From positions 1 through 63,891 of the forward strand of contig JADFDJ010000012.1 of assembly GCA_018262895.1 (NCBI GenBank): a DNA stretch of 63,891 nt, read 5' to 3'. The position numbers and the translations under genes were made by a program. The stretch comes from Methanomassiliicoccus sp. GTDB lineage: Archaea > Thermoplasmatota > Thermoplasmata > Methanomassiliicoccales > Methanomassiliicoccaceae. Shown piece by piece: positions 3,195 through 5,309 of the stretch. Numbering within the stretch: position 1 is the first letter of the stretch; each line of letters starts with the position of its first letter. The notes beneath the pieces are model-generated. The model saw nothing but the letters and a program-made list of their open reading frames with translations, was not told the DNA's origin and made no database searches.

Positions 3195-3216
3195 AGGCTC
3201 CCGACCGCAAAGGACC

Positions 3217-3677
3217 TCACAGCTCCCTGCCTGCAGGGTACAACACGTCTCCCCAGCCCTGCTTCTCCATCGCGTGGTCTATCATCCACCATACGCCGGG
3301 CCTGTCAAAGGACTAGCCGAACAGGTCGCCCCAGAACATCTTCTCCATCGGCATCTCCACCCTCCCCCGGCCAACAGCTCGTTGAACAAGCGATTTGCTT
3401 CGGCCTCGCTGTCCGGGGTGATCATGATGTACACATTGTTACCGAAGTTCGCCTTCTGGCCGGTCGACTCCAGGGTATCGCCGTCCATGAGCGTTACACC
3501 GCCTACGGGCAGGGCGATGTGGGCGATCATCTCTCCCTCGGACTCGGAGAACCGCTCCGAGCCGGGCATCTCCTTGTACCTCATCAGAGAGGAGAGCTCT
3601 CCGCCGAACACAGTTCTGTAGAGTTTGAAGGCCTCCTCGGTCGTGCCGTTAAGGTTCAGGTATGGGTTCAACATCAT
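3217..3677 (-). pseudogene. PhnB/VOC-family protein, frameshifted and with an in-frame TAG
   Basis: From the ATG pair at 3677/3674 the frame reads the classic PhnB-like VOC pattern: N-P-Y-L-N-L-N-G-T-T-E-E-A-F, then V-F-G-G-E, then H-I-A-L-P-V-G-G, and D-S-E-A-E-A-N-R-L-F-N. At the G-rich run near 3362-3368 one base appears to be missing. In the shifted frame the family ending continues (V-E-M-P-M-E-K-M-F-W-G-D-L-F-G), meets TAG at 3313-3315, then carries on as S-F-D-R-P-G-V-W-W-M-I-D-H to a TGA at 3217-3219. Members of this superfamily include glyoxalases and resistance proteins; this copy has no demonstrable function. Two disruptions argue for decay, although a sequencing error could explain the frameshift. 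Confidence 0.7.
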
Positions 3678-3872: not shown

Positions 3873-4556
3873 TCAATTGACGACCTTGAGGACTCTGGGA
3901 AAATGCTCCGTGAACAACGTCCTCAGGTCCTCGACCACATCATCATTTGCCAGTGATATGGTGATGTCCGTTCGCTGCGCCCCCCTGAGGAAGAAGGCGA
4001 TCTGGCCGGGATTGGTGAAGAACTTCCGTTTAAGCTGGATCAGCGTGACGTCCTTATTCATCAGCTCGATGTCCTTGCTCCTCTCCAGCTCAGCAAGGAG
4101 GGCCCTGTTCTCTTCAGGTGTCAGCTCCCTACCCAAGGTGTTCCTCACCGTCCACTTGGTCCCGACGCCGAGAACCGCCCCCATGACCGTGCCCGCGACC
4201 GTGGCCCCCATGGCCTTGGCGAACAGGCCTGGTTTCTTGATCCCGATTATCCTCCGGTTGGTGATGTAGATCGCGTAGCCCAGCGAGCCTGGTCTGGCCA
4301 TGTCGGAGCTGGTGAACCCCCCCACCACGTACTCGTTGGATGTATCGGCCCGGTACGAGGGCCGGCTCGCGGCTGGGTCCAGCGTCACCTCGGACATACT
4401 CATGTCCCTCTCGAGCTTTGGTGGAGGCGAGGCGGTGCTGGTAGTTTGGAGAGTGGTCCTCTCGACCTTCTTGCCGCAGGAGGCGCAGTAAGCGTGGTCC
4501 GCTCCCATTGGAATGCCGCAGTAGGGGCAGTACCGGGCCGGCCTGGAGGGGGGCAC
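3873..4556 (-). CDS. Zinc-ribbon protein with PH-like domain (second half of an amber-split frame)
   Basis: A double-CxxC zinc ribbon lies at residues 9-27 (C-P-Y-C and C-A-S-C). A polar, proline-rich linker follows, then a compact domain beginning V-G-G-F and I-Y-I-T-N-R-R-I-I-G, a pattern common in bacterial/archaeal PH-like domains. A glycine/valine-rich hydrophobic stretch (about residues 108-130) may touch the membrane. The nominal start is GTG at 4556, but the same frame is open upstream for 32 more codons to the TAG at 4653-4655, beyond which it is the HEAT-repeat frame. No independent promoter or clear Shine-Dalgarno site is seen before 4556. It is therefore likely the C-terminal part of one longer gene (3873-5165). 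Confidence 0.65.
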   Translation of the reverse strand: MPPSRPARYCPYCGIPMGADHAYCASCGKKVERTTLQTTSTASPPPKLERDMSMSEVTLDPAASRPSYRADTSNEYVVGGFTSSDMARPGSLGYAIYITNRRIIGIKKPGLFAKAMGATVAGTVMGAVLGVGTKWTVRNTLGRELTPEENRALLAELERSKDIELMNKDVTLIQLKRKFFTNPGQIAFFLRGAQRTDITISLANDDVVEDLRTLFTEHFPRVLKVVN

Positions 4557-4652
4557 CTCTCTTTGCGCCTGGCTGGACGGTTCCGAGGCGATCTCTCTTA
4601 CCCACTGTTCAGTGTAGGCCGAGGGATCGATCTTGTTGAGGGTGAACGCCGC

Positions 4653-4655
4653 CTA
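4653..4655 (-). other. In-frame amber codon joining two domains
   Basis: TAG lies between ...E-R-K-R-F and A-A-F-T-L-N-K-I. A single base change from TAC or TAT (Tyr) would create it. Confidence 0.8.
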
Positions 4656-5165
4656 GAACCTTTTTCTCTCATCCGTGACCGCCGTGAGGAGATGCGGTGT
4701 CGCCGCCGCTCCCACGGCCACCAGTGCTGTGGAGGCATACACCCGCTTGTCCGTGTCTTCCAATGCCTCGGTCAGCTGTGGCAGGTAGGGTCCCAGGGTG
4801 GGCATACCATAATCATCCAGCATCCCACAGGCGTGCGCCTGTCTTGCCTTATCGCCAAGTGCATTGATCAGCAGGGGAATGATCAGGTCCGGCCTCGGGA
4901 TGCGTGCCAGGGCCGCTCGGGCATATGCTCCGCCTTTGTTCTCGTCAAGCGCCTCCACCAGAGCCGGGATGGCCGGTTCTCCGATCTCGGTCAGCAATAC
5001 CCCTGCGTAAGCTTGCCTCCGCTCGTCACCGAGAACCTTGATCAGCTGAGGTATGGCCGCGGCCCCCATCTGGTTCAGCATGACCATTGCTGGCCCTCGC
5101 TTCTTATCATCGGCCAAATCCTCGATGAGGTCACTGACCGACCTAGTACTTCCAAACCGGCCCAT
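4653..5165 (-). CDS. HEAT-repeat protein ending at an amber codon
   Basis: The 170 residues form about five HEAT/PBS-lyase-like helical repeats with the recurring pattern D-x-R/K-x-x-x-Y/H-A-x-x-x-L-x-x-I-G. They begin at an ATG (5165) that sits about 30 bases after a TATA-like box (5193-5201). Such repeats are protein-interaction scaffolds. The last repeat is cut by TAG (4653-4655) exactly where the other repeats have Tyr or His. After the TAG the repeat continues in frame (A-A-F-T-L-N-K-I-D-P), then leads into the zinc-ribbon protein. Possibilities are decoding of TAG as an amino acid (pyrrolysine in some methanogens), a recent nonsense mutation, or a base-call error. Confidence 0.65.
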   Translation of the reverse strand: MGRFGSTRSVSDLIEDLADDKKRGPAMVMLNQMGAAAIPQLIKVLGDERRQAYAGVLLTEIGEPAIPALVEALDENKGGAYARAALARIPRPDLIIPLLINALGDKARQAHACGMLDDYGMPTLGPYLPQLTEALEDTDKRVYASTALVAVGAAATPHLLTAVTDERKRF

Positions 5166-5192
5166 ATGCCCGAGAAATTATTCCATTCGATG

Positions 5193-5201
5193 ACTATAAG
5201 A
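5193..5201 (-). promoter_or_regulatory. TATA-like box for the HEAT/zinc-ribbon gene
   Basis: On the minus strand CTTATAGTC is centred about 32 bases before the ATG at 5165, placing transcription start a few bases before it. Confidence 0.4.
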
Positions 5202-5309
5202 TTGTTATTGGCGACTTCTGCCCACTACCGCGGAGGACATCGTTCACGTCTTCCTCTACGTGCATTTTTCTGATGGACCGATCTCTTATTGATTTGCCTA
5301 CGGTAGCCA

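Follow-up and report, generated by a model that had tools for sequence, protein, structure and literature searches.

Our analysis suggests, with a probability of roughly 0.73, that a recent nonsense mutation has changed a tryptophan codon into amber in one accessory gene of Methanomassiliicoccus sp., which encodes a 430-residue protein of HEAT repeats and a zinc ribbon, and that the resulting stop is probably leaky via tRNA-Pyl. The gene lies in the window, namely the whole stretch of 63,891 nucleotides analysed here, which is contig 3 of a genome of 2.34 Mb in 30 contigs (G000). Its only orthologue was found in another genome of the same genus (G003).

Translation of the gene frame (5165-3873, minus strand; 431 codons including the terminal TGA) confirmed that it is broken once only, by a TAG at codon 171, with 170 residues before it and 259 residues between it and the TGA. 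The gene and its upstream region are divided as follows.

5166..5205, minus strand: short upstream region with the TATA-like CTTATAG, kept in G003 according to the alignment; putative promoter.
4656..5165, minus strand: 5' part, 170 codons from the ATG at 5165, with HEAT repeats 1-4 and the start of the last repeat; 82% identity to the G003 orthologue.
4653..4655, minus strand: in-frame TAG, codon 171, the sole internal stop; the G003 equivalent is TGG (Trp).
3873..4652, minus strand: 3' part, 259 codons and TGA, with the remainder of the last HEAT repeat, a linker, a Cys4 zinc ribbon and a conserved C-terminal domain to which no fold was assigned.

The HEAT repeats were detected by Pfam in the gene product (HEAT_PBS, 31.7 bits; HEAT_2, 29.6 bits; both above cut-off) and supported by a fold model, which is reliable for the HEAT part only and places residue 171 as the third residue of the helix 169-179. 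In the register of this model, position 3 of each repeat's first helix holds Tyr53, Tyr81, His111 and Tyr143 in the four earlier repeats and Trp171 in the fifth repeat of the G003 protein. This agrees with the sequence-only reading, which had put the TAG inside the last HEAT repeat at a place where the others carry Tyr or His. The zinc ribbon that it had proposed for the 3' part is weak by Pfam there and passes in the G003 protein (25.8 bits, cut-off 25), while its "PH-like" assignment was not borne out: the C-terminal 155 residues gave no Pfam match and a pLDDT below 50. The TATA-like stretch that it had noticed upstream of the 5' part is indeed present, within a block common to G003 (AATCTTATAGTCATCGAATGG), and the 140 nt upstream of the gene, which include this stretch, are homologous between the two genomes.

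The protein was present in 2 of the 147 genomes of the order, and neither protein nor DNA-pattern searches of the genome and viral contig collections gave further homologues. This narrow distribution indicates that the protein is dispensable. In G003, one continuous 430-codon ORF encodes it, with 81% identity and TGG at codon 171, and the gap-free alignment from end to end supports the earlier view that both sides of the TAG are coding and that the homologue is one 430-residue protein, not two genes. The protein is thus one unit, and TGG to TAG is one transition (G>A). The TAG is not conserved, as the sole orthologue in the order has TGG. With just two homologues and no outgroup, the ancestral codon is judged from a single comparison; the direction from TGG to TAG would follow from the intact G003 gene and from the aromatic residue that each repeat has at this position. 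A two-gene model, in which translation starts anew 3' of the TAG, might be suggested by a GTG at 4556 that opens a 227-aa ORF shortly before the zinc ribbon, but the gene is fused in G003, where the position of the GTG is GCG, and the nearest conserved start, ATG 220, falls inside the zinc ribbon. This model was rejected as extremely unlikely.

The genes that decoding of the TAG as pyrrolysine would call for (pylT, pylS, pylB, pylC and pylD) were all found in G000, at the places below.

Contig 26, 77321-78094: pylD (203 bits, above cut-off).
Contig 26, 79003-79257 (matched part), between pylD and pylB: PylC-like gene (N-domain above cut-off).
Contig 26: pylB (446 bits, above cut-off).
Contig 26, 80359-81045 (matched part): pylS (285 bits, above cut-off).
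Contig 26, adjoining pylS: tRNA-Pyl gene (pylT) with the anticodon CTA, found by ARAGORN.

PylS is of the 275-residue form and has a full match only to the C-terminal family; this short form, together with the gene set, points most likely to Methanomassiliicoccales as the order. Near this cassette are mtmB, mtbB and mttB, with one in-frame TAG each. The cell could therefore decode amber, and the presence of a CUA tRNA-Pyl means that a part of any UAG is probably suppressed, so that nonsense mutation and pyrrolysine, which the sequence-only reading had offered as alternatives, are not fully exclusive. As separate observations, Rfam gave a strong PYLIS_2 match in mtbB (L020, 1731-1830, minus strand), and a search of G003 for a dimethylamine methyltransferase (PF09505) found none.

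On the other hand, TAG is an ordinary stop in this genome. We sampled 864 kb (37% of the genome) with a home-made gene caller based on codon usage, which makes the stop-usage figures approximate, and the strict calls (n=522) ended in TAG in 95 cases (18%), TGA in 350 and TAA in 77; usage in G003 was alike, with 20% TAG. Among 518 reciprocal-best pairs with matching C-termini, TAG was shared by both genomes in 79 and stood on one side only in 47, namely in G000 against TGA or TAA in G003 in 23 and the reverse in 24, indicating that TAG swaps freely with the other stops. The frame stayed open past TAG no longer than past the others (median 21 codons, against 19 for TGA and 23 for TAA). The coding score of frames after TAG did not separate interrupted genes from same-frame neighbour genes, and TGA and TAA gave similar cases. 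The earlier judgement that general read-through is unlikely, made from about eight other TAG-ended genes in the window (8 other called genes were counted), is consistent with these data. Genome-wide reassignment of TAG to pyrrolysine was ruled out by the 95 TAG ends out of 522 and the orthologous stop pairs, and our literature search found no recent paper describing an archaeal genetic code in which TAG means pyrrolysine.

To see interruptions elsewhere, G003 proteins were aligned to the DNA of G000, where 551 queries matched at 60% identity or more, covering about one third of the genome. Single-TAG genes were the HEAT/zinc-ribbon gene and a VOC gene at C24:32751, both from TGG, and four genes had a single TAA (C25:4364 and C27:19154 from TAC, C27:99062 from TAT, and C29:20104, which is frameshifted as well, from AAA). 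One SRPBCC gene was a multi-stop pseudogene with TAG, TGA, TAG and frameshifts. Codon usage predicts about 66% TAG, 16% TAA and 18% TGA among one-step nonsense changes, and amber interruptions do not exceed this share, although the numbers are small (2 of 6 single-stop genes; P(<=2) = 0.11). A bias the other way, towards TAG, would be expected if amber mutations were protected from loss by decoding as pyrrolysine.

Some of these loci deserve a description of their own. The second single Trp-to-TAG change (L034, C24, 32751) is in a 138-residue VOC protein, which is intact in G003. TAA stands against Tyr of the other genome in four otherwise intact genes (G000 C25:4364, C27:19154 and C27:99062; G003 C4:84496), and TAA in G000 is above the codon-usage expectation (4/6, P ~0.007, post hoc), for which sequencing error or chance is possible. 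The SRPBCC/AHSA1-like gene occupies G000 C24:12770-13757, carries several stops and frameshifts, and has an intact copy in G003.

The comparison also bears on an artefact of sequencing, assembly or strain mixture, with TGG as the true codon, which we consider quite unlikely. G000 does have more interruptions against G003 than the reverse (7 nonsense genes and 5 frameshift junctions versus 3 and 0), and a 1-bp difference in the neighbouring gene is located in a G-rich stretch. However, the genome is 99.66% complete and 1.01% contaminated, the TAG site is outside any homopolymer, and the SRPBCC gene and similar broken genes carry several lesions, like real pseudogenes.

The neighbour in question is immediately downstream.

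3200..3677, minus strand: VOC/YjdN-like pseudogene with a 1-bp deletion, followed by a TAG in the restored frame.

It is intact at the same place in G003 (141 aa, C4:574549-574974), so genes are being lost next to the locus. As for signals of pyrrolysine insertion, Rfam gave no PYLIS match after the TAG of the HEAT/zinc-ribbon gene, whereas the positive control mtbB gave PYLIS_2 at 99 bits, and mtmB gave PYLIS_1 at 50.5 bits, below cut-off. Moreover, the RNA fold of the 100 nt 3' of the TAG was no better than that of shuffled sequences (z -0.13). PYLIS is helpful for pyrrolysine insertion, not essential.

The 3' tail does not look like a long-abandoned sequence. Its 259 codons contain no second stop and no frameshift. 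Against G003, the 5' part had a dN/dS of 0.21 and the 3' part one of 0.35; within the latter, it was 0.59 for the linker and zinc ribbon and 0.17 for the last 155 codons, compared with a genome median of 0.09 and a 95th percentile of 0.22. Judged by these ratios, the gene evolves fast and its tail appears not to have been neutral across the whole divergence. In a neutral simulation, with the branch assumed to be 0.2 substitutions per site long and indels at 5%, the tail stayed clear of both stops and indels with a probability of 2% when it was unselected for 30% of the branch and of 10% when it was unselected for 20%, which would put the unselected period of the tail at less than about a quarter of the lineage's branch. 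This limit means that the mutation is very recent, or that translation and selection of the tail continue. Two apparent counterpoints to a nonsense mutation are this tail without decay, in particular the low ratio over its last 155 codons, and the fact that the three TAGs in three genes from the comparison with G003 all replace TGG.

A rival reading is a selected or stably tolerated pyrrolysine protein, in which UAG 171 is efficiently decoded and the full-length product with pyrrolysine at 171 is the working one after a near-neutral replacement of Trp. The complete pyl cassette, the three pyrrolysine methyltransferases and the intact, constrained tail agree with it, and there are precedents in the order for amber genes other than methyltransferase genes: 16 additional pyrrolysine proteins in Ca. 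M. alvus, where 1.6% of stops are TAG (PMC4153887), and 46 in-frame amber genes in all in ISO4-H5 (PMC5011839). Nevertheless, we regard it as unlikely. With TAG at 18% of stops, G000 uses it as an ordinary stop, and M. luminyensis, with 11.3%, had no pyrrolysine proteins predicted beyond methyltransferases (PMC4153887). The amber interruptions not above ochre ones, the lack of a PYLIS match and the broken neighbour also speak against it, and a long polar lysine derivative would take the place of Trp at a conserved aromatic position. That UAG 171 is kept as a working pyrrolysine codon, giving full-length protein only when the cassette is expressed in a genome where TAG is a common stop, is very improbable. 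The evidence on the locus gave no sign of a need for pyrrolysine at codon 171, and a required pyrrolysine there is unlikely.

A nonsense mutation is thus favoured between the two options of the sequence-only reading, by the TGG of G003, the lack of TAG excess, the lack of PYLIS and the broken neighbour. In the mechanism that we propose, G>A recently turned Trp171 into amber, and the UAG would act mainly as a stop, so that the main product would be a 170-residue HEAT fragment that lacks the C-terminal domain as well as the zinc ribbon and the last repeat. Under expression of the pyl cassette, some ribosomes would insert pyrrolysine at 171 and yield a minor full-length product. In a uidA reporter of Methanosarcina acetivorans, an introduced amber mostly terminated translation, with 20-30% read-through (PMC2933860). 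The locus would be accessory and probably beginning to decay.

Taken singly, such a case is ordinary. Where a pyrrolysine-decoding methanogen still uses TAG as a frequent stop, some suppression has to be tolerated, and each new amber nonsense mutation is a place from which pyrrolysine could start to enter proteins in a near-neutral way. The HEAT/zinc-ribbon gene would exemplify such a start, having Trp in G003, amber here and otherwise no damage. On the other hand, amber being no commoner than ochre in this genome suggests that suppression does little to save interrupted genes. If pyrrolysine at 171 were true, a protein unrelated to methylamines would be tied to methylamine availability.

Among known systems, a tRNA-His guanylyltransferase described by Heinemann in 2009 reportedly contains pyrrolysine by neutral evolution. 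Like our gene, it would be a single in-frame amber case in a pyrrolysine-decoding methanogen, for a protein unrelated to methylamines, whereas the evidence for ours comes from sequence. The putative pyrrolysine proteins of Ca. M. alvus and ISO4-H5 (PMC4153887; PMC5011839) share with it a pyl cassette, one TAG in an otherwise intact gene and a homologue with a sense codon. However, Ca. M. alvus combines rare TAG stops with many such genes, unlike G000, where TAG stops are common and TAG interruptions no commoner than TAA ones. M. luminyensis (PMC4153887) is alike in its pyl cassette, the TAG in mtmB, mtbB and mttB, and a still common TAG stop, although no additional TAG-interrupted gene was predicted there, while G000 has at least two single-TAG genes in the 37% sampled, beside TAA ones. 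Finally, recent nonsense-mutated genes of prokaryotes (PMC7918605) likewise have an in-frame stop with constraint still seen downstream, but the cell studied here has a dedicated amber-suppressor tRNA.
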